DNA of 64,000 nt from Rhodothermales bacterium. Lineage in GTDB: Bacteria; Bacteroidota; Rhodothermia; Rhodothermales; UBA10348. This document shows, piece after piece, positions 46,398 to 56,837 of this stretch. The stretch lies in NCBI GenBank assembly GCA_017643395.1, contig JAEPNP010000001.1, forward strand, positions 186,001-250,000, given 5' to 3'. The notes below the pieces were generated by a model. It did no database searches. It saw only the letters and a program-made list of their open reading frames with translations, and had not been told where the DNA came from. Position 1 is the first letter of the stretch. Each line of letters starts with the position of its first letter. Position numbers and translations under genes: made by a program.

Positions 46398-46868
46398 ATG
46401 CCGTCTCTACTCGCCGTGGACCTCGGACTGCGAACCGGACTCGCCGCCTACGGGCCGGACGGTCGTCTGCTGTGGTACCGAAGCCGCAACTACGGATCGA
46501 GAAGCCGGCTGCGCAGCGCTGCGGCCTCTCTTCTGCGCGAATACCGGGAAACTACCCACCTGGTGGTCGAGGGCGGCGGGGACCTGGCCGTGCCGTGGCA
46601 AAAGGCGGCCGAGCGGGCCGGCGTGGTACCGCAGTTCCTGGATGCGCACACCTGGCGCACGGTGCTGCTGCTTCCCCGAGAGCAGCGAAGCGGGGCCCTG
46701 GCCAAGCAAGCGGCCGACAGGCTGGCACGAAAGGTGATCGCGTGGTCCGGGGCTACCAGACCTACATCATTGCGTCATGATGCCGCCGAGGCCATCCTCG
46801 TGGGCCTGTGGGCCGTGCTGGACCTTGGCTGGCTTTCACGCCTTCCGGCAGAGCTGGCACCAGGTTGA
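46398..46868 (+). CDS. Small RuvC/RNase H-like fold protein
   Basis: 156 aa. LLAVDLGLRTGLAAYGPDG is an RNase H-fold first strand with the catalytic-type Asp (Asp8) and a turn as in RuvC and YqgF. THLVVEGGGDLAVPW places an acidic residue (Glu58) at strand 4. RHDAAEAILVGLWAV gives His127-Asp128 and Glu131 in the last helix, the position of the final RuvC acidic residues. AHTWRTVLLLPREQRSGALAKQAADRLARKVI is a basic helix pair of the kind that holds DNA. All three acidic sites are kept, so a metal-dependent nuclease is plausible. I do not assign it to RuvC itself. It is flanked by genes on the opposite strand. Confidence 0.65.
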   Translation: MPSLLAVDLGLRTGLAAYGPDGRLLWYRSRNYGSRSRLRSAAASLLREYRETTHLVVEGGGDLAVPWQKAAERAGVVPQFLDAHTWRTVLLLPREQRSGALAKQAADRLARKVIAWSGATRPTSLRHDAAEAILVGLWAVLDLGWLSRLPAELAPG

Positions 46869-46900: not shown

Positions 46901-49900
46901 TTACCGCAGCACGGTCATGTGTCGCACGAGCGTGCGATTGGCTGCCTGCAGGCGGTACAGATACACGCCGCTGGCAAGCCGACTGGCATCGAACGGCACG
47001 TCATGGCGTCCCGCGGTCATGAACCCGTTCGCCAGCAGGCCGACCGAACGGCCAAGCATGTCGAACACCTCAAGCCGTACCGGCCCGTCTTCCGGCAGTC
47101 CGAATTCGATGCGCGTGTGCGGGTTGAACGGATTGGGGTAGTTCTGCTTCAACTCGTAGCTGTCCGGCGTCACGGCCAGAGGATCTCCCTCCGCGCCTCC
47201 GAATCGCAGTTCGCCCACGTTCAACTCGAACGGTGTGGACCGACCCTGCTCGCCAATCACGTAGAACGAGATCAGCAGCAGGTCAGACGGGTCGAGTGAG
47301 CCCGTTCCGTCCGGGCGCCGTAATTCGTCGAACCAGAGTCGATATGTTTGCGGTTGCCGTTCCAGTTTCACCACGGTCCCGTGGTGGTCCGAGGTGCGCA
47401 CCGACTCCTTCTCAAAGAGTACCCGAAGTTGCCCCGCGCCGGAGGCCGTAAACTCGACATACCGGTAGTCGGACAGGTCCATGGCGCGGCCGTTGGCCCG
47501 CAGATAGCGGAACAGAACCGCCCACGTGCGCACGCTGCCCGTCATATTGACGCTGCGTTCTATGCGATGCACACCGTCCTTGGCTGCGCCCTGGTCGGCC
47601 TCCACGCGAAAATCGTTCACGTCGGAGCCACCTTCACCGTCGTAGGTGTAGCTCCAGGCCCCATCGGCCAGGTAGACGACGTCCCGGTCACCGGCATCCG
47701 TTTCCACAAAAAATGAGGCGTCGAACAGCGGGCCGACCGGAATGCTTACCCGCGAGATCCCGTTTTCGTCCGGGCGCGGCACAGAGACCGATTCCTGGAA
47801 CGCCTGACGGTCCCCGAGTTCGGTGCGCTGGATGGTGCCGCCGGTGAGATGAATGCGACCGCGCGCCTTCGGATTGTAGAGCTCCAGTTCCAGCACGCCA
47901 CTGCTGTAGTTACCGGTCCGGATGTAGAGCTCCGGCGCCTGCGGCGGATTCGCCTCCGTATTAAGGAACGTGATCGGACCCATCTCGGCAAGACGTGCCA
48001 GTGAGGCCTCGACCATCATTCTTGTGTACGATGGACTCACCGACCAGACCTGCACATTGATGACGTCCTCTGCGTCTGCCGGCACGTCGTGCTCGTCCAG
48101 ACGGAATCGGCTGTCGACGGTCCACCCGGATCCGGTCCGGTAGGCCACGTAGGTCACGGCGTGATCGACCGCACCGTCCTCATGCACCAGGCGCGACAAC
48201 AGGAACGGTTGTCCGGCCGCCTGAATGGCCGCAACCGATGTGAGGTGCGCACCGCGCAGGCGATCGCACACGACTTTGGTGTGTTCGTACAGTTCGCCCG
48301 AAAGCGTCAACGTTGCAAACACGGCGCCAAGGCGCCGGCCATCGCGCATGCGCAGGTAGTCGGCAGCCACCACATCGGCAGCATTTGTCACGGGAAGGAT
48401 GTCCTCCGGCGAACTCTCGAAGGGCTCACTGCCGTCCGGTCCGGTGAGCGGTACCACGGCCCGCAGCGTCGGGTTGCTCAGCCCTGACTTGCCGGCACCG
48501 TCAAACTGGAATTTCGGCAGACCATCAATCCCTCCGGTCTGCGACGCTTCGAGTCGACGTGTGAACAGCACCCGGGCCAGTGTGCCCGCAAGCGAGCCGT
48601 CTGACTCCAGTCCTCCGCCGCCTCCGCCCGAGCCGCCGCTGGGCGTCACCGTGGCGTCATCCTGGTCGTCTTCGGTCGGCTGATTGTTGTTCGGCGTGGA
48701 ATCCACGTCCGTCTGATCCGCCGCGGTTACCTCTGCGGAATCCGTCGCCGGATCCGAGGTGGTCACCGTCGCCACGATGTCGAGTGTCGCGCCGCCCGAC
48801 ACGTTCACCGTACCGACGGTCCAGATCTCAGTGCCCGCATCGAACGAGCCCTGACTGGGCGTCGCAGACACAAAGGTGAGCGTGCCTGGCAGCGTATTCG
48901 TCACCTGAACATTGGTGGCCGTGTTCGGCCCCGCGTTGGCCAGTGTGATGGTGAATGTCACGTTGTCGCTGACATTCGGGCTCGGTTGATCGACGTCGAC
49001 TGTGAGCGACAGATCGATCGGACGGCGATACCCAAAGCGGTTTGCCGAGTCCGTATTGCCGAAGTCTGAGAATGAAGCCGTCTCCACGTTGTCCGTGGTC
49101 AGAACCGCATCGCCCGGGAGGTCTCCCGTATCGATGTCCATGACAAAGTTGCCTTCGGAGGCGACCACGAAGCTGAAATTGCCGCTGCCGTCGGTGTCCT
49201 GGGTCGCGACCTGGATGTCACCTCCATCAACGAGACCGTCTGCGTTTACGTCGCGGTAGAGCCTCACCGTAACACCGGAGGTGCCCGAGTCGGTGCCTCC
49301 CTCCCACGTGCCGTTCTCGTTCATGTCGAGAAAGACATTGCCCGAGATGGTGTTGACGCCGTCCACGAGACAGGAGACGGATTCGTGATCGGTGCCGGTG
49401 GTCAGGCTGCGCACGTGCGTCGCAACGCCGGTCGTCTTGTTGACCGTAAAGAAGGAGTTCCGGTTGGCACCGCCGCTGGTCCCGGTCGAACCGTAGAGTT
49501 CACCGTAGGCGTCGAACGCAAGGCCTTCCATGTCGTCCTGCCCCAGGGCACCGACACTGGTGACGCTGCCGTCGGTCTTGTTGATGGTCACCAGCACATC
49601 GGCCGTGGACGAGTTGTTGATGCCGTACAGGGTGCCGTTGTAGGCGTCGATGGCGATGTCGTCGATGTCGGGCAGACCGGTGACAGCCGTGGAAGCGATC
49701 ACCAGGTAGTCCACGCCTGCTCCGAACGCGTCCGGGATAAAGGCTCCGGTCGTCGTATTGATCTGGAACAGGAGGTCATCCAGGTTGGTGGCGCCCTCCC
49801 GGCGTTCGGTGGCCCAAAGGATGCCGGTCAGCGGGTCAAAGGCCAGCCCGTCCGCATCGTCCAGCGTCTGAAGTCCGTCGGCGCCGTCGCCCTGGCCGAT

Positions 49901-51391
49901 CGTTCCAATGGATGTGAAGACGCCGGTGCTTGTGTTCAGCGTGCCGAAGTCGCCGCCGTCCACCGCGTAGAGAATCTCCGTTTCCGGCCAGTAGGCCGAG
50001 GCTTCGATGACGGTGGTGCCGGTCGCACCTACGCTCTGCTCGGTCGATCCGCTGCGCGTGGTGCGCAGGAGCGTGTCCCCGGAGTCAGCCACCACGTAGC
50101 AGACCTGCCCTCCGATGGCAGTCGGAGTCAGGCTTTCCGAATCGTCGTCATCCTCGTTGGTGGAGGCGTTGTTCGGGGTGGAGTCGAGGTCGTTGAAGTC
50201 GTGGCTCTTGACTTCGAAGCTCTGCGTGACGGGATCAAACGTATCGACGGTTACCACTATGGACAGCGTGGCCGTGCCCGAAGCGGTCAACGTGCCGACA
50301 TTCCATTCGCCGGTCCCGGAATTGTAGGTGCCCTGACTTGGAGTCGAGGACTTGTAGGTCAGCCCTGAGTCGAGCGTGGCATTGACAATGACGCTCGTCG
50401 CGTTGTTGCCCGACTGCTCGTCCAGCGTCAGCGTCAGGGTCATGTCCGAACCGACGGGCGGCGTCAACGAAGAGGCGGACGATGCGAGTGCCAGGTCCAC
50501 GTCGACGGCCGGCGCTGTCCACGGGCTCTCGTCGGGCTCGGCGAGCGGCGTCGCGCCAAGCAGCAACATGGCAAGGACCACTACACCCGCGGGCATGGCG
50601 GAAAGGTTGCGGTCCTGACGACCCCGGTCCCGTTCCCAGCTCATTCCCCATGAGAACAGCGCGATGAATGCGAACACTTCGACCGGAAGGCCGAACAGAA
50701 TGAACAGAATCGGCATGTAGAGTAATCCGCCGTAGTACAGGACCACCCCGTGCACGGCATACTTGAGGGGAATCATGAAGAAGAGGTAGCCCATGCACAC
50801 CACCGTGATGGTCGCTTTTTGCCACCACCGGTAGTCCAGGATCCAGTGCGTGACCGCCAGGATGAGTGGCACCACCCCGATGAGTGTCATGCCTGCGCCG
50901 GTGAGGCCGGTCAGGTAGTCGCCGGCCGTGTACGGAAACGGCCAGGGCTGAATGGCGAAGAAGGCGACGGCAGAGCCCTGGATGAGGGCCGCCGCGCGGA
51001 GGAAATAGTTGGTCGGTGCCATCTTGGCCGGCAGCAGGTAGCTCAGGATGACCAGACACAGACACACCGTCCCGGTCACGATCAGATGCGCACGGGAGGG
51101 CTCGAACGAAGGCAGATCCAGTTTGGGCAGTACCAGCGCCAGGCGATCGCCGATCACGTAGTGAAGCGCTGTCGTGCCGCTGGCCATGCCGAGCGGTTCA
51201 CGCACGACATCGAGGATCCATACCCAGACCGAGCCGGTGAAGGGCAGAGTGGCTACCCACACGAGCGTGACCAGCAGGCCCAGCAGAGCCATCGGCACAA
51301 TGTGCGCGCGGGACTCCGTGCGTCGGATGCCGCGGTGCCGGTGCAGATACGTGGTCGCCCTGCCCGGATACTTCTTGCGCAAGTTCCTCAT
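46901..51391 (-). CDS. Giant hybrid: polytopic membrane domain + DUF11/SdrB-like domains + type IX sorting domain
   Basis: 1496 aa from the ATG at 51391, which overlaps the YaiO-like stop (ATGA); the frame opens further upstream. Residues ~30-250 contain about seven hydrophobic helices (IVPMALLGLLVTLVWVATLP, HLIVTGTVCLCLVILSYLL, ITVVCMGYLFFMIPL). Residues 250-285 look like a second secretion signal (MSWERDRGRQDRN then MPAGVVVLAMLLLGATPLA). A DUF11-like domain follows (~295-425), a propeller-like region (~430-675), an SdrD B-like domain (ISGNVFLDMNENGTWEGG), a second DUF11 (~790-915), Gly-rich linker and two beta-rich domains. The end is a type A sorting domain (NYPNPFNPHTRIEFGLPEDG ... SGVYLYRL). 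Inner-membrane helices and a type IX export signal are hard to reconcile in one chain. Confidence 0.85.
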   Translation of the reverse strand: MRNLRKKYPGRATTYLHRHRGIRRTESRAHIVPMALLGLLVTLVWVATLPFTGSVWVWILDVVREPLGMASGTTALHYVIGDRLALVLPKLDLPSFEPSRAHLIVTGTVCLCLVILSYLLPAKMAPTNYFLRAAALIQGSAVAFFAIQPWPFPYTAGDYLTGLTGAGMTLIGVVPLILAVTHWILDYRWWQKATITVVCMGYLFFMIPLKYAVHGVVLYYGGLLYMPILFILFGLPVEVFAFIALFSWGMSWERDRGRQDRNLSAMPAGVVVLAMLLLGATPLAEPDESPWTAPAVDVDLALASSASSLTPPVGSDMTLTLTLDEQSGNNATSVIVNATLDSGLTYKSSTPSQGTYNSGTGEWNVGTLTASGTATLSIVVTVDTFDPVTQSFEVKSHDFNDLDSTPNNASTNEDDDDSESLTPTAIGGQVCYVVADSGDTLLRTTRSGSTEQSVGATGTTVIEASAYWPETEILYAVDGGDFGTLNTSTGVFTSIGTIGQGDGADGLQTLDDADGLAFDPLTGILWATERREGATNLDDLLFQINTTTGAFIPDAFGAGVDYLVIASTAVTGLPDIDDIAIDAYNGTLYGINNSSTADVLVTINKTDGSVTSVGALGQDDMEGLAFDAYGELYGSTGTSGGANRNSFFTVNKTTGVATHVRSLTTGTDHESVSCLVDGVNTISGNVFLDMNENGTWEGGTDSGTSGVTVRLYRDVNADGLVDGGDIQVATQDTDGSGNFSFVVASEGNFVMDIDTGDLPGDAVLTTDNVETASFSDFGNTDSANRFGYRRPIDLSLTVDVDQPSPNVSDNVTFTITLANAGPNTATNVQVTNTLPGTLTFVSATPSQGSFDAGTEIWTVGTVNVSGGATLDIVATVTTSDPATDSAEVTAADQTDVDSTPNNNQPTEDDQDDATVTPSGGSGGGGGGLESDGSLAGTLARVLFTRRLEASQTGGIDGLPKFQFDGAGKSGLSNPTLRAVVPLTGPDGSEPFESSPEDILPVTNAADVVAADYLRMRDGRRLGAVFATLTLSGELYEHTKVVCDRLRGAHLTSVAAIQAAGQPFLLSRLVHEDGAVDHAVTYVAYRTGSGWTVDSRFRLDEHDVPADAEDVINVQVWSVSPSYTRMMVEASLARLAEMGPITFLNTEANPPQAPELYIRTGNYSSGVLELELYNPKARGRIHLTGGTIQRTELGDRQAFQESVSVPRPDENGISRVSIPVGPLFDASFFVETDAGDRDVVYLADGAWSYTYDGEGGSDVNDFRVEADQGAAKDGVHRIERSVNMTGSVRTWAVLFRYLRANGRAMDLSDYRYVEFTASGAGQLRVLFEKESVRTSDHHGTVVKLERQPQTYRLWFDELRRPDGTGSLDPSDLLLISFYVIGEQGRSTPFELNVGELRFGGAEGDPLAVTPDSYELKQNYPNPFNPHTRIEFGLPEDGPVRLEVFDMLGRSVGLLANGFMTAGRHDVPFDASRLASGVYLYRLQAANRTLVRHMTVLR

Positions 51392-52194
51392 CGGCGCCCC
51401 GCGGCGTTGAATCCAAAGAAGAGCGATACCTCCACCCCGGTCCGGGTGTAGTACGGGTTGTTGTACCAGGAGCCCGATACCTGAAGCCCGGAGGTCCGCG
51501 TCAACCACTGCCGCCAGGCCACGCGCCCCATGCGGCTGTCAAAGTTTGTGTAGATCACCAGCGGATCGATGATCTGATAGGCCTCAGAGCCCATCGCCGC
51601 ATGCAGTAGCAGCGTTGCCTTTCCGTGCCGGCCAATCGTAAGCGCGGCGTCGTGATAGCGTGACGTGGCCTCGCCCGGATTGCTTAGCTGAAACCGCACG
51701 CCGCCCTGCGCAATCAGCCATCGACTGAAGTAGACCTGCGCTTCCACGATAGCCGCCATGTCCTGATGCCCGTCGCGTACTTCCCGGAAGAAGCCGCTGA
51801 CAAGCAGCACCACCTTGCGACGCGGAGGCAGCTTGCGGCCGATGGTCACGTCCGCGCGATACTTCGGATTGTAGAACCCGCCGTTTGAGGTGCGTGCCGC
51901 CACCCGGGTGATCCACGCTCCCAGATTGGCCGTGTGCTGCAGTTTGTAGGCAAAGCTCGGCTCTCCGAAGCGATGCTCGGCCACGGCCTCGCCGTTCCAG
52001 ATCATCTTCGGGCCACGTACAAACTCCGTGCGCACCACGGCCCCGCGCCACGGGCTGATGCCCGCGTCAAAGCTGTAGTTCAGCCCACCGATTTCCACCC
52101 GATCGCGGGGCGGGGCGGTTTGCTGCAGTCCCTGCGCGTGCGCGGTCGTGGCGGCGCAGGTAATGATCGAGGCCAGAAACAGATGTCGGAGCAT
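51388..52194 (-). CDS. YaiO-family outer-membrane beta-barrel protein
   Basis: 268 aa from the ATG at 52194, which gives signal peptide MLRHLFLASIITCAATTAHAQ; a GTG at 52239 is also open. The rest is alternating amphipathic strands with aromatic ends (GLNYSFDAGISPWRGAVVRTEF, RWLIAQGGVRFQLSNPG, LQVSGSWYNNPYYTRTGVEVSLFFGF), fitting a small barrel of the YaiO type. In E. coli yaiO sits by the glycosyltransferase gene yaiP, and here too a GT2 enzyme is close by. It may form the outer-membrane exit or docking site for the glycan or for the coupled giant protein. Confidence 0.7.
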   Translation of the reverse strand: MLRHLFLASIITCAATTAHAQGLQQTAPPRDRVEIGGLNYSFDAGISPWRGAVVRTEFVRGPKMIWNGEAVAEHRFGEPSFAYKLQHTANLGAWITRVAARTSNGGFYNPKYRADVTIGRKLPPRRKVVLLVSGFFREVRDGHQDMAAIVEAQVYFSRWLIAQGGVRFQLSNPGEATSRYHDAALTIGRHGKATLLLHAAMGSEAYQIIDPLVIYTNFDSRMGRVAWRQWLTRTSGLQVSGSWYNNPYYTRTGVEVSLFFGFNAAGRR

Positions 52195-52290
52195 GGGCAC
52201 ACCGGCTTTGCCGCCGGCGCATGGCTGTGGTTCCTCCACGCGAGTGGCAAGCAGTGTGCCGTGCTCCTTTTCGGGCTTTTTGGCGTTTCA

Positions 52291-52329
52291 GGAGGGACTC
52301 CCTCCCTGCCCGACGGGCAAAACTTGCCC
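52291..52329 (-). promoter_or_regulatory. Stacked alternative hairpins in the wecB-yaiO gap
   Basis: The ~195-bp gap contains a perfect GGAGGGA/TCCCTCC palindrome (52291-52305). Next to it are two mutually exclusive stems sharing the centre GGGCA: TGCCC (52307-52311) with GGGCA (52315-52319), or GGGCAA (52315-52320) with TTGCCC (52324-52329). Shared-arm hairpins upstream of a gene suggest attenuation. I recognise no known riboswitch class. Confidence 0.35.
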
Positions 52330-52390
52330 TGACCCCTACCCCGTCTGCTTTTGTGTCGGCCGCCAGAGCCGGCCTCTCCGCCCCTTCTGA

Positions 52391-53575
52391 TCAGGCGGCG
52401 CGAATGACTCGCTGGGAGCCCGCCAGATCCTGGACCAGCACACGGGCGATGGCCTGTCCGGCATGCCCATCGCCGTAGGGATTCCTCACCGTGCGCATGC
52501 GGCTGTGCACGATAGGCTTCTCGAGCAGCGTCTCTACCCAGCGCCGGATCTTGCCGGGATCAGTGGCCACGAGGGCGCCGCCGCCGGCCTCGATGAGCTC
52601 CGGACGTTCGGTCGTCTTGCGCGTGACAAGCACGGGCACACGCAGTGCCGCGGCCTCCTCCTGGATGCCGCCGGAGTCCGTAATGGTCAGCCAGGCATTC
52701 CGCAGCGTCCACAGCATCTGCGGGTAGTTGAGCGGCCCCGTCAGCAGGACCCGCTCGTGCACATCGGGCGCAAGGTCTTTCATGACCCCGATCACCGTCT
52801 TGCGCACAACCGGATTCGCATGCACCGGCCACACGACGCGCAACTCGGGATGTGTCTCTGCCAATTCACGCACCGTGTGCGCGATACGAGCCAGGGGCGC
52901 CCCCCAGTTCTCGCGGCGATGGGCCGTGACGAGCACAATCTTGGAGCCTTCCGAGGCCTTTACGAACGGCGCCACGTCGCAGCCCTCGACTGCACCCCCG
53001 CCGGCGTAGTGCGAGATGGCGTAGTCCATGCCGAGTCGGGTCGCATCTACAATGGTATTGCCCACCATGTCGATGCCGTCTCGGGCAATGCCTTCCTCGG
53101 TGAGATTGTCCACCGCGCGCTCGGTCGGTGCGAAATGCCACCGCGCTATCTGTGCGAGCAGCACCCGGTTTTGCTCCTCGGGAAACGGATCGCTCATGTC
53201 GTGCGAGCGCAGGCCGGCCTCCACGTGGCCCACAGGGATCTGCGCGTACGATGCCGCCAGTCCCGCCATGAGCGCCGAGGAGGTATCGCCGTGGACCAGA
53301 ACGGCCTCAGCATCTTCGGAAGCGATGACCGCATCGACCCCGTCCATGAGTCTGCCACCCAGGTAACCCAGCGTTGACCGTTCACGCTTTAGCGTGATCA
53401 CGTGGGCCGGATCCATCTCGAAGAACTCGTAGACCGGCCATGCCATTTCCTCGTGCTGGCCCGTGTGCACCACGACGGGTGTCAGGGGACTGCCCTGGAG
53501 GGCATGGTAGACCGGAGCCATCTTGATGATCTCCGGACGCGTACCCATGCACAGCAGGATGCGCTTCTGGCTCAT
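52391..53575 (-). CDS. wecB: UDP-N-acetylglucosamine 2-epimerase (non-hydrolysing)
   Basis: 394 aa. It interconverts UDP-GlcNAc and UDP-ManNAc. The start ILLCMGTRPEIIKMAPV is diagnostic. VVHTGQHEEM, VHGDTSSALMAGLAA, GHVEAGLRSHDMSDPFPEEQNR, TAHRRENWG, PVHANPVV and ITDSGGIQEEA follow in the normal WecB order and include the catalytic Asp, Glu and His positions. The position between a GT2 synthase and an outer-membrane barrel suggests that ManNAc is part of a surface glycan. A small palindrome (AAGGCCA/TGGCCTT, 53644-53660) lies just upstream of its start. Confidence 0.95.
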   Translation of the reverse strand: MSQKRILLCMGTRPEIIKMAPVYHALQGSPLTPVVVHTGQHEEMAWPVYEFFEMDPAHVITLKRERSTLGYLGGRLMDGVDAVIASEDAEAVLVHGDTSSALMAGLAASYAQIPVGHVEAGLRSHDMSDPFPEEQNRVLLAQIARWHFAPTERAVDNLTEEGIARDGIDMVGNTIVDATRLGMDYAISHYAGGGAVEGCDVAPFVKASEGSKIVLVTAHRRENWGAPLARIAHTVRELAETHPELRVVWPVHANPVVRKTVIGVMKDLAPDVHERVLLTGPLNYPQMLWTLRNAWLTITDSGGIQEEAAALRVPVLVTRKTTERPELIEAGGGALVATDPGKIRRWVETLLEKPIVHSRMRTVRNPYGDGHAGQAIARVLVQDLAGSQRVIRAA

Positions 53576-53685
53576 GTGGAAAGAGGGGTGCGTCTTGTGG
53601 CGGTTCGCAACAAGAGCGGTATCGACCTCTTTCCGGCGCCCTCAAGGCCAATTTGGCCTTTATTCTGGCTCCGTCGACGTGGAAG

Positions 53686-54798
53686 TCAGGCGGCCATGCG
53701 GGAAACCGTGCGTAGCGCCACGCGGCCGGCCTCGACGGCCATCACAACTCCGTGGACGCGCGCTCCCTGCTCCATCAGTACCGTGTTTCCTGTGGCTGTC
53801 GATGGCGTCTCCGGTGTGCCGACCTCGGCACCCCATCGCACGGTCAACTGACCCTCCGAACCTGCGATGCCCGTGACTCGGGAGCCGGCTCGCAATTCGA
53901 GTGACGTGTTCGAGAACACCTCTCCTTCGACCGAGGCGCCGACCTCAAGCAGAATCGAGCCTTCGGCCTTGATGGAGCCCTCGACGCGGGCTCCGCGCCC
54001 AAGGCGGAGGTTGCCGAGTACAATGAGGTCTCCCCTCCAGACATGTTCGGGGGGAATTGTCAGGTTTCCGTCCACCTGATGCGCCTTGCCGTGTCTGGCA
54101 GCGCGTCCGTTGAGGCGGAAGAGCGGCGGAAGGTCCAGCGTGCGGTGCAGAGAGGGTACCTGCCCCTCCGGCCAATGCCACTCGTCTCCGAAGCGGATTT
54201 CCAGACTGGCGAGCCGCTCAAACTGGCAACCGGGCCACACCTGCAGCATGCGGTGGGCGGCGACGGAGCCGTTAAGTTCGCAGCCGGCCAATGCACGAAG
54301 CGTGCGGCGGGCGTGGATCCAGTCCCCGATCACGGTTTCGTCACCCAGAAATGCGTCTCCATCCACGAACAGTTTTTGGATCAGGCTGCCCTGGCCGGAC
54401 TCGAAGGCCCCGGAGATGTAGGTCTGCCGCAGCAGTCCGGCGCCGGCCGGCCATTGGGTGAGCGTGTTGCGCACCACCACCAGCGGCAGTACGCCGTTCT
54501 GGAAGTCGGGGGTGTCGGTGGAATGCGGGCCGATGACCTCGTAGAACTTTCGAAGCGCTTCGACGCCTCCGCCCGGCCGGCCCCCTGCGGCGAGGTAGTT
54601 GGAGACCGCTTCCTGCACATGCGTGGCGACCTCCTGTCCAAAGTTCTCGGCGACCAGGTGATGGTCGTCCGCGTAGGTGTCGGAAATGGTCAGGGGCAGC
54701 TTGTCCCGCCCTGTGCGCCATTCCGTGAGCGCCGGCCAGGCCGGGAGCAACAGGACAAGCGCTGCGGCAACGATCAGTATGACCACACCGATCGTCAT
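53686..54798 (-). CDS. Membrane-anchored polymer-forming (bactofilin-like) protein
   Basis: 370 aa. An N-terminal anchor (MTIGVVILIVAAALVLLLPAWPAL) is followed by an alpha/beta region (~30-230) with no recognised family. Then comes a right-handed beta-helix stretch of ~100 residues: GDLIVLGNLRLGRGARVEGSIKAEGSILLEVGASVEGEVFSNTSLELRAGSRVTG. Its regular G-x-[IVL] turns are those of bactofilins (DUF583). Bactofilins self-assemble into filaments that localise envelope enzymes. The ATG overlaps the GT2 stop (ATGA). It may position or cap the synthase; that is inference. Confidence 0.75.
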   Translation of the reverse strand: MTIGVVILIVAAALVLLLPAWPALTEWRTGRDKLPLTISDTYADDHHLVAENFGQEVATHVQEAVSNYLAAGGRPGGGVEALRKFYEVIGPHSTDTPDFQNGVLPLVVVRNTLTQWPAGAGLLRQTYISGAFESGQGSLIQKLFVDGDAFLGDETVIGDWIHARRTLRALAGCELNGSVAAHRMLQVWPGCQFERLASLEIRFGDEWHWPEGQVPSLHRTLDLPPLFRLNGRAARHGKAHQVDGNLTIPPEHVWRGDLIVLGNLRLGRGARVEGSIKAEGSILLEVGASVEGEVFSNTSLELRAGSRVTGIAGSEGQLTVRWGAEVGTPETPSTATGNTVLMEQGARVHGVVMAVEAGRVALRTVSRMAA

Positions 54799-56837
54799 GA
54801 CTGTTTCTTCGGGGAGGATGGGATGCGGTGGCCCACGGTGGGCGCCCTGCTGGCCACACGATCGGGTGCGGACGGTGGCCGACGGTCTCGTTTTCGGAGT
54901 TCGTCAGCCGGTCTCGGGCCGGATTGTGGGGGCTTCGGGGAAGGTTGTTGCGGGGCCGGGGCGGCTTGCTGCGGGGCCGGGGCGGCCTGCTGCTGCGGGG
55001 CCGGGGCGGCCTGCGGCGGGGCCGGGGCGGCCTGTTGCGGGGCCGGGGTCGACCGCTGAATCGGTGCCCATGCGGGCGGACGCGGTGCCGCTTCACGATT
55101 TGCGGCTCGATCCGGAGCAGGGGCGGGAGCAACCGCCGCAGGCCGCATCGGGCGCTGCGCGGGCGGTGCCATCGGCGCCGGTGCCATCGGCGCCGGGGCC
55201 GGAACCGGTTGCGGAACAGCCGGAATGGCATCCGCGCTGCGAATCGTCTCCTCTGCGCTAGCCGGCGTGCGGTACCTCTCCGTCTTGTCCCAGACCACCT
55301 CTTTGCGGCGACGCGGCCAGAGTTGGGTCATGACGGCCCGCGAGGTGGAGACCAGGCTGACCAGAAAACCGCCGAGGACCAGCGGGAGAATGCGAATGCG
55401 ACGCTCGGTTCCGTCCAGATGCGCGGCCGCGCCGATCTCAAAAAAGGCCGCGAAGTTGCCGATGGTGTTGTAGGCGGCCACCGAGAAAATGGCCACGGCC
55501 CCCAGGAACGGGTTCGCACCGAGATAGAAGGCCAGGATGGCCAGGAACCAGCCGATCAGCAGGATCGGCGACATCAAATAGGTGCCCAACAGAAGGGCGC
55601 CGTCCAGCCGTTCTCGAAACGTCAGCCGCGGTCTGGACCATAGTCCCGGCATGTAGCGCACGGCGGCGTCGGTGTGCCCGCGAGCCCATCGCATGATCTG
55701 CCGAATGCGGACGGGCCAGGTCTCCGGGACCTCCTCGTAGCACTCGTAACGATTCGAATAGGCGATCTTCCATCCGCCCAGGACCAGACGGAACGTGATA
55801 TCGGTGTCCTCAGCGAGTGAGTCCTCGCGCCAGCCGCCGACGGCTTTCAGCGCGGAAACGCGCACGCCGCCGACCGTACCGCCATATTGGGCGATCACCT
55901 TCAGATTCATGCGCGCCTGCTGGTCCACCTGATACCCACCGCAGCGCTCCAGATCGAGCAGCCGCGTGAGCAGATTCCGAGGCGTGTTCACGGGTACCAC
56001 GCGGCCCATGACGGCACCGACCTGCGGGTCCAGGAATGGTGCGGCCAGGCGCTTGATCAGGTCTCGGCCGGGCAGATAGTCGGCGTCAAATACGAGAATG
56101 ACGTCATCGGTCACGTCCGCGATCGCATCCTGCAGCGCGGCCGCCTTGCCCGGTGTACCACCCTCCCTGTGTAAGGGGAAGATGCGAGTTGCGTGGTTCG
56201 CCGCGTACCGGTCGATGATGTCCCGCGTCCCGTCGGTGGAGCGGTCGTTCACCGGCACAATGCGCATGCGATCAGCCGGGTAGTCCGCTGCGAGCAGTGC
56301 CTCCAGGATGGACGCGACCACGCGCTCCTCATTGTGGCAGGGGATCAGGACGGTCAGACTGGGCCAGTTGGCGACGTCAATCGGCAGGTAGGTATGCCGC
56401 TGCCTGCCATAAAGCCGGTTGTATGTAAAGGTGTAGTGCCGAACGCCGTACACGCAGATCAGCGCAACGATCGAGTACAGTACCCAGAGCACAGCCTTGA
56501 TCCAGGCTGCGCGGTCGCGATCCCAGGTCGTGCCATACCAATGCGGAGGCAAGTGACCCACCTCGACCCCGTCTGGCAGCGGAATCGGTGATTCAAGTTT
56601 CGCCAGCTGGGCATCATTTGCCGAGCCCGTAGCCGTTTTTGCCGTCGTTTCCACTGCGACGGCGCTGTCCAGAACCAGAGTGCCGGCGTCCTCGCCGTAG
56701 CGCGCACAGCCGCTCACTACGCTCAAAAGCAGCAGAAGCGTACAGAAACGCAGGATTCCAGATGTGGAAACCCGCCGAGATCGGCCTTGGGAAGCGACGT
56801 TGATCGGCATGAAGCAGATGGTGTGAGCCACCTGCAT
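54795..56837 (-). CDS. Processive GT2 glycosyltransferase with lipobox N-terminus and Pro/Ala/Gln tail
   Basis: 680 aa. The catalytic domain (~155-400) has VLIPCHNEERVV, VNDRSTDGT (Asp198), FDADY (Asp251/Asp253), AEDTD (344-346) and QIMRW (380-384): the D, DxD, TED-type and QxxRW motifs of cellulose/chitin/poly-GlcNAc synthases. One helix precedes it (~113-132) and about four follow (~410-520). Unusually, the N-terminus (FCTLLLLLSVVSGC) is a lipoprotein signal with Cys44. The last ~130 residues are Pro/Ala/Gln repeats ending in a basic stretch. GGAAGG sits just before the ATG at 56837; an ATG at 56810 is possible. Coupled to the bactofilin-like gene by ATGA. The donor sugar is unknown; UDP-GlcNAc or UDP-ManNAc fits wecB. 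Confidence 0.88.
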   Translation of the reverse strand: MQVAHTICFMPINVASQGRSRRVSTSGILRFCTLLLLLSVVSGCARYGEDAGTLVLDSAVAVETTAKTATGSANDAQLAKLESPIPLPDGVEVGHLPPHWYGTTWDRDRAAWIKAVLWVLYSIVALICVYGVRHYTFTYNRLYGRQRHTYLPIDVANWPSLTVLIPCHNEERVVASILEALLAADYPADRMRIVPVNDRSTDGTRDIIDRYAANHATRIFPLHREGGTPGKAAALQDAIADVTDDVILVFDADYLPGRDLIKRLAAPFLDPQVGAVMGRVVPVNTPRNLLTRLLDLERCGGYQVDQQARMNLKVIAQYGGTVGGVRVSALKAVGGWREDSLAEDTDITFRLVLGGWKIAYSNRYECYEEVPETWPVRIRQIMRWARGHTDAAVRYMPGLWSRPRLTFRERLDGALLLGTYLMSPILLIGWFLAILAFYLGANPFLGAVAIFSVAAYNTIGNFAAFFEIGAAAHLDGTERRIRILPLVLGGFLVSLVSTSRAVMTQLWPRRRKEVVWDKTERYRTPASAEETIRSADAIPAVPQPVPAPAPMAPAPMAPPAQRPMRPAAVAPAPAPDRAANREAAPRPPAWAPIQRSTPAPQQAAPAPPQAAPAPQQQAAPAPQQAAPAPQQPSPKPPQSGPRPADELRKRDRRPPSAPDRVASRAPTVGHRIPSSPKKQS

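Follow-up and report, generated by a model that had tools for sequence, protein, structure and literature searches.

An in-frame fusion of a six-span membrane protein to a T9SS-type surface protein, with a signal-peptide-like segment at the joint

How can one bacterial polypeptide begin with a multi-pass inner-membrane domain and end with a signal for export by the type IX secretion system (T9SS)? The question is raised by a gene of a Rhodothermales bacterium, found in a stretch of 64,000 nucleotides that we refer to as the window. Here, we describe the gene, its relatives in other genomes and its neighborhood, and we weigh the ways in which its product could be made and processed. All positions are those of the window, and the features named lie on the minus strand unless stated otherwise.

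Results

The gene is a single unbroken minus-strand frame (46901-51391) that encodes 1,496 amino acids and ends with a stop codon. Its start, ATG at 51391, overlaps the stop codon of the upstream YaiO-family gene by 4 nt (ATGA/GTGA), and in two congeners (G001 and G002) the fused gene begins at the same position with the codon GTG; together, the overlap and the shared position support this start. In the predicted chain, six transmembrane helices are linked by a positively charged loop and an internal signal peptide to a surface protein, which contains DUF11 repeats and a predicted carbohydrate-binding fold and ends in a T9SS sorting signal of type A. On the full chain, the Pfam and NCBIfam matches above curated cut-offs were DUF11, in two stretches, and the T9SS type A sorting domain, and residues 1-287 had no match in either database. 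Just past the stop codon lies a plus-strand open reading frame of 156 amino acids (46398-46868), the start of which, on visual inspection, looks RuvC/RNase H-like.

Following a basic tail (residues 1-30; 51302-51391), the membrane domain occupies residues 31-256 (50624-51301). A preliminary description made from the sequence had placed about seven transmembrane helices at residues ~30-250. Hydropathy and an AlphaFold2 model both bear out a hydrophobic N-terminal part, but the number of helices has to be revised. At a threshold of 1.2, the hydropathy profile has seven peaks N-terminal to residue 250, two of them overlapping, and the model, which draws on 10 homologues and has a mean pLDDT of 69.7 (core, mostly 70-89), shows six membrane spans, a beta hairpin at residues 73-91 and a short helix at residues 268-277. 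We rejected the seven-span topology, since hydropathy overcounts where windows overlap (~195-230) and the model shows six spans. The charge distribution predicts that the six spans are N-in/C-in and that residues 263-281 form an in-to-out segment. Sequence matches to the six-span family were absent from Pfam, NCBIfam and the PDB, and Foldseek matched its fold to nothing within an E threshold of 0.001. In VIA-align all rows were under Z 8, a range common for helical models that neither names nor excludes a family.

The membrane domain is joined to the surface protein by a positively charged loop, M250-A265 (50597-50644), and a signal-peptide-like segment, residues 266-285 (50537-50596), with candidate cuts LLLG↓A and LLGA↓TP (arrows mark the cut). 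The second signal-like segment noted earlier near residues 250-285 is thus real: residues 263-281 have a mean hydropathy of 2.04, the loop ahead of them (247-262) holds four K/R residues, and an acidic stretch without K/R follows. Between species of the genus, pN/pS is 0.09, 0.15 and 0.15 at M250-A265, compared to 0.23, 0.22 and 0.12 in the membrane core for the same species comparisons. It rises to 0.30, 0.31 and 0.46 in the signal-like segment and to 0.81, 0.81 and 0.53 in the linker past it, which is the fastest-evolving part and has changed in length in G002. The low values at the junction (0.09-0.15) indicate that it is read in frame and kept. No stop codon separates the membrane and surface parts, and therefore the membrane protein could be freed only by proteolysis.

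The surface half contains a first DUF11-like domain at about residues 299-415 (50147-50497; Pfam DUF11, with the boundary from BLAST of the repeats) and a second DUF11 domain found by Pfam at residues 793-904 (48680-49015). The C-terminal type A sorting signal of the preliminary description was recovered by profile searches as a domain at residues 1418-1491 (46919-47140), scoring 31 bits with PF18962 (cut-off 27) and 34.8 with TIGR04183 (cut-off 23). Its motifs are kept in all three congeners, and its pN/pS between the window species and G001, the one pair compared, is 0.34 versus 0.29 for residues 916-1400, a similar degree of constraint. The genome also encodes the T9SS components PorU (963 bits, cut-off 420) and SprA (1,976 bits, cut-off 200). 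Residues 1242-1412 (47156-47668) had no Pfam match. By structure comparison they are predicted to adopt a carbohydrate-binding-module fold, a beta sandwich like those of CBM11/30/4/29 and CIA30-like proteins. The comparison with CBM11 (1v0a; Z 13.1, rmsd 3.6, 144 residues aligned) ties with that to a CIA30-like protein (7zkq; Z 13.8, rmsd 4.0, 154 residues aligned). Sugar binding is therefore not proved by the fold alone; the surface protein probably binds sugar polymers. Foldseek also aligned the surface region with large insecticidal proteins, at TM-scores of 0.1-0.2 and an rmsd near 20. These rows are probably due to beta-sandwich domains only and do not suggest a toxin.

Among 244 genomes of the class, 10 have the membrane domain, and in four of these it is fused: the window genome (G000) and two further species of its genus (G001 and G002), and a member of a distant family (G206). 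By the preliminary description, orthologues that are all one intact chain would have spoken against it. Instead, five genomes (G005, G010, G186, G194 and G032) have a separate membrane gene, with a T9SS-type surface gene with its own signal peptide directly downstream. In G010 the two genes share one frame, with a lone TGA between them. The sorting domain is above the Pfam cut-off in three of the five split surface genes; the contigs of the other two (G186 and G010) stop before the C-terminus. The tenth membrane protein, that of G028, has an unrelated C-terminal tail and lies on a short contig (L034:995-2140); its extension of ~120 residues is perhaps a coiled coil, and a T9SS sorting-domain remnant was observed upstream of YaiO in this genome. 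A stand-alone form occurs at seven further loci, six in Proteobacteria and one in an Acidobacterium. Stand-alone proteins stop shortly past a WGMS(W) motif, the point where the fusion joins.

Judged from these sequences, adjacent genes for a membrane protein and a surface protein have merged in frame. In a tree of 17 membrane domains, where the branch of one outgroup row (L049) is very long, explaining the fused state takes two changes, each of them imposed by well-supported branches, and an AU test rejects a single clade of the four fused rows (p 0.0001). On this tree the fusion arose at least twice. The earlier suggestion of a recent gene fusion is right about the fusion, as the split orthologues attest, but the event predates the genus and so is not very recent. 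The independent G206 fusion, in the distant family (L038:9826-14559), is known from one assembly without a close relative in the set. Its internal signal peptide is intact, as is the cleavage site there. Its sorting-domain match is weak (21.6 bits versus a cut-off of 27), and translation of its downstream gene might just as well begin at an ATG of that gene's own.

Upstream of the fused gene lie a YaiO-family outer-membrane beta-barrel gene (51388-52239; TIGR04390, 104.6 bits, cut-off 32), a WecB-type UDP-GlcNAc 2-epimerase (52391-53575; TIGR00236, 377 bits, cut-off 210), a bactofilin-like protein (53686-54798; PF04519, 28.1 bits, barely above the cut-off of 27.9) and a processive GT2 polysaccharide synthase with DxD, ED and QxxRW motifs (54795-56837; Pfam/NCBIfam and motifs). 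These four genes precede the fusion or the gene pair in the relatives with contigs that are long enough. The five-gene cassette formed with the six-span protein was found in the window (51388-56837) and at L030-L038 and L046-L052, with DxD and QxxRW in 15 of 15 synthases that have a GT match and ED in 14 (it was not found in L038). At all seven proteobacterial and acidobacterial loci the cassette occurs without the T9SS protein; the epimerase is placed differently in L047.

We also examined the likelihood of cleavage at the internal segment. The window genome encodes signal peptidase I (77 bits, cut-off 47) and has 136 sorting-domain matches, from which we examined 40 other frames, among the highest-scoring ones (L062-L101). 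Of these, 38 have a signal-peptide-like start and 30 an A-x-A↓Q type site, in agreement with the Q-rule reported for Bacteroidetes in a paper whose main text names neither Rhodothermus nor Salinibacter (PMC5837995). Clustered N-terminal spans were found in none of these 40 T9SS-type frames; one has three or more hydrophobic windows, which are scattered. No A-x-A↓Q site is present in the internal segment of the window species. We discarded an initial cleavage matrix, based on 13 signal peptides, because its best site had Glu at -1. A second was trained on 29 of these T9SS-type frames of the window genome, two visibly mis-picked sites being left in, and scores its training sites at a median of 6.9 (range 0.6-9.7). 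With this matrix the best internal sites score 3.4 in the window species and 3.6 in G001, compared to 4.1 for a control, a span end not expected to be cut. A strong internal site occurs in G002 alone (10.4). In G206 the site is textbook by motif, GTTAHA↓Q, yet scores only 4.1. Four of the five split orthologues have an A-x-A↓Q-type site, which has been lost in the window genus.

Discussion

The observations are best explained, with a probability that we put at roughly 0.6, by a gene fusion that yields one precursor, cleaved by signal peptidase I within its internal signal-peptide region so that the surface half can be exported by the T9SS. The whole chain would be translated as a single precursor, and its six spans would insert N-in/C-in. 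What was once the N-terminal signal peptide of the surface protein would, from its internal position, start a seventh, in-to-out translocation, and signal peptidase I would most likely cut near residues 274-286. This cut would leave the membrane protein in the inner membrane beside the polysaccharide synthase and free the surface half in the periplasm, from where the C-terminal sorting domain would direct it through the T9SS to the cell surface. There, the surface protein probably holds or organises the polymer made by the cassette; the CBM-like fold, as modelled, fits binding of this polymer. The sequences themselves show the fusion and its two origins, the translated junction, the pattern of topology and the split orthologues; cleavage, export and the role in the polymer matrix are steps that we infer. 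The preliminary description had called the locus a topology paradox. There is probably none: it largely dissolves because a precursor that is cut by signal peptidase requires just this topology, six spans with both ends inside and then an in-to-out signal peptide. Three considerations make cleavage likely, namely the topology, the retention of the sorting domain and the fact that the membrane protein has to be freed, yet the site itself predicts it weakly in the window species.

This weak site is one reason to consider an uncut chain, in which the surface half would be a large periplasmic domain tethered to the inner membrane, with its sorting signal unused, or would reach the outer membrane while tethered. 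The low scores in the window species and G001 would fit such a chain, as would the loss in their genus of the site type found in most split orthologues. We nevertheless consider it unlikely, given that the sorting domain is intact in three congeners and constrained in the one species pair, that G002 has a strong site, and that the linker after the signal segment evolves fastest (pN/pS 0.53-0.81) and has changed in length, as would be expected of a free mature N-terminus. It would be a long shot that a chain cut partly or not at all forms an envelope-spanning tether, with its spans beside the synthase and its carbohydrate-binding end placed outside by the T9SS. If true, polymer synthesis would be physically tied to polymer capture at the surface.

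Alternatively, translation of the surface protein could also, or mainly, begin internally, at M250 or M266, giving two products per frame. The preliminary description had proposed starts at ATG 50644 or 50596, and we retain the idea as a rival, albeit a rather improbable one that is not needed and has little support. M250-A265 would be an acceptable signal-peptide n-region, and the internal ATG of G206 opens a textbook signal peptide. Of 10 gene starts inspected in the window, only one has a Shine-Dalgarno-like site, so the lack of such a site does not rule out initiation. On the other hand, M250 does not vary among the 10 membrane domains, split ones included, and its conservation needs no start function; M266 would yield a signal peptide without positive charge; and neither start would free the membrane protein, as no stop codon lies ahead of the surface part. 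An assembly or sequencing error that joined two genes is scarcely credible. The genomes of the window species and its congeners are draft assemblies, and the fused gene of G002 spans two contigs, but the open junction recurs in two other, independently assembled species, with many synonymous (pS 0.6-1.0) and few non-synonymous differences. The junction is therefore no sequencing error, and we rejected an assembly error for the window genus; the G206 fusion stands on one assembly.

A precursor cut at its internal signal peptide would supply two proteins, one for the inner membrane and one for the cell surface, out of a single bacterial chain, an unusual, polyprotein-like form of gene expression. 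The fusion enforces equal synthesis of the two partners. In literature searches on T9SS cargo with membrane helices and on bacterial precursors with internal signal peptides, no pertinent case was found among the papers listed. The cassette is apparently an undescribed polysaccharide system, found in at least three phyla, that includes an unnamed six-span family. In a literature search on YaiO with exopolysaccharide, epimerase and bactofilin, YaiO did not occur among the papers listed.

The closest counterpart of the cassette is the Nfr system of E. coli (NfrB, NfrA and WecB), in which a GT2 synthase, WecB and an outer-membrane protein are reported to make a polymer proposed to contain ManNAc (PMC8669469, PMC8669472). 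Both have a processive GT2 synthase with QxxRW, a WecB-type epimerase and an outer-membrane barrel. In contrast to Nfr, the cassette lacks NfrA, and the Pfam matches of its synthase include no MshEN domain; we do not class it as Nfr. By analogy, the cassette probably works on the same principle, and the likeness points to a ManNAc-containing polymer.

The surface half resembles T9SS type A cargo in its sorting domain, which scores above curated cut-offs, and in the presence of the T9SS sortase and translocon in the genome, and the split orthologues, which begin with signal peptides, are cargo of the usual kind. An N-terminal Sec signal peptide is stated for all T9SS effectors in one account (PMC10202324). 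Unlike such cargo, the fused chain has its signal-like segment internally (residues 263-285), behind six spans. This suggests that a protein can be T9SS cargo without a signal peptide at its start; predictors that read only N-termini would therefore miss such cargo. Among precursors, the nearest parallel is FbcH of Bradyrhizobium, the cytochrome b/c1 precursor, which is cut at an internal signal peptide. As in FbcH, a polytopic membrane protein is followed in frame by an exported protein, the translated frame is continuous through the joint, and an in-to-out signal-peptide-like segment lies there. It differs from FbcH in the proteins joined, in a second product that would be bound for the cell surface via the T9SS, and in that cleavage is predicted. 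The fused precursor with its internal signal peptide is thus a variation on a known type of precursor, in a new form.
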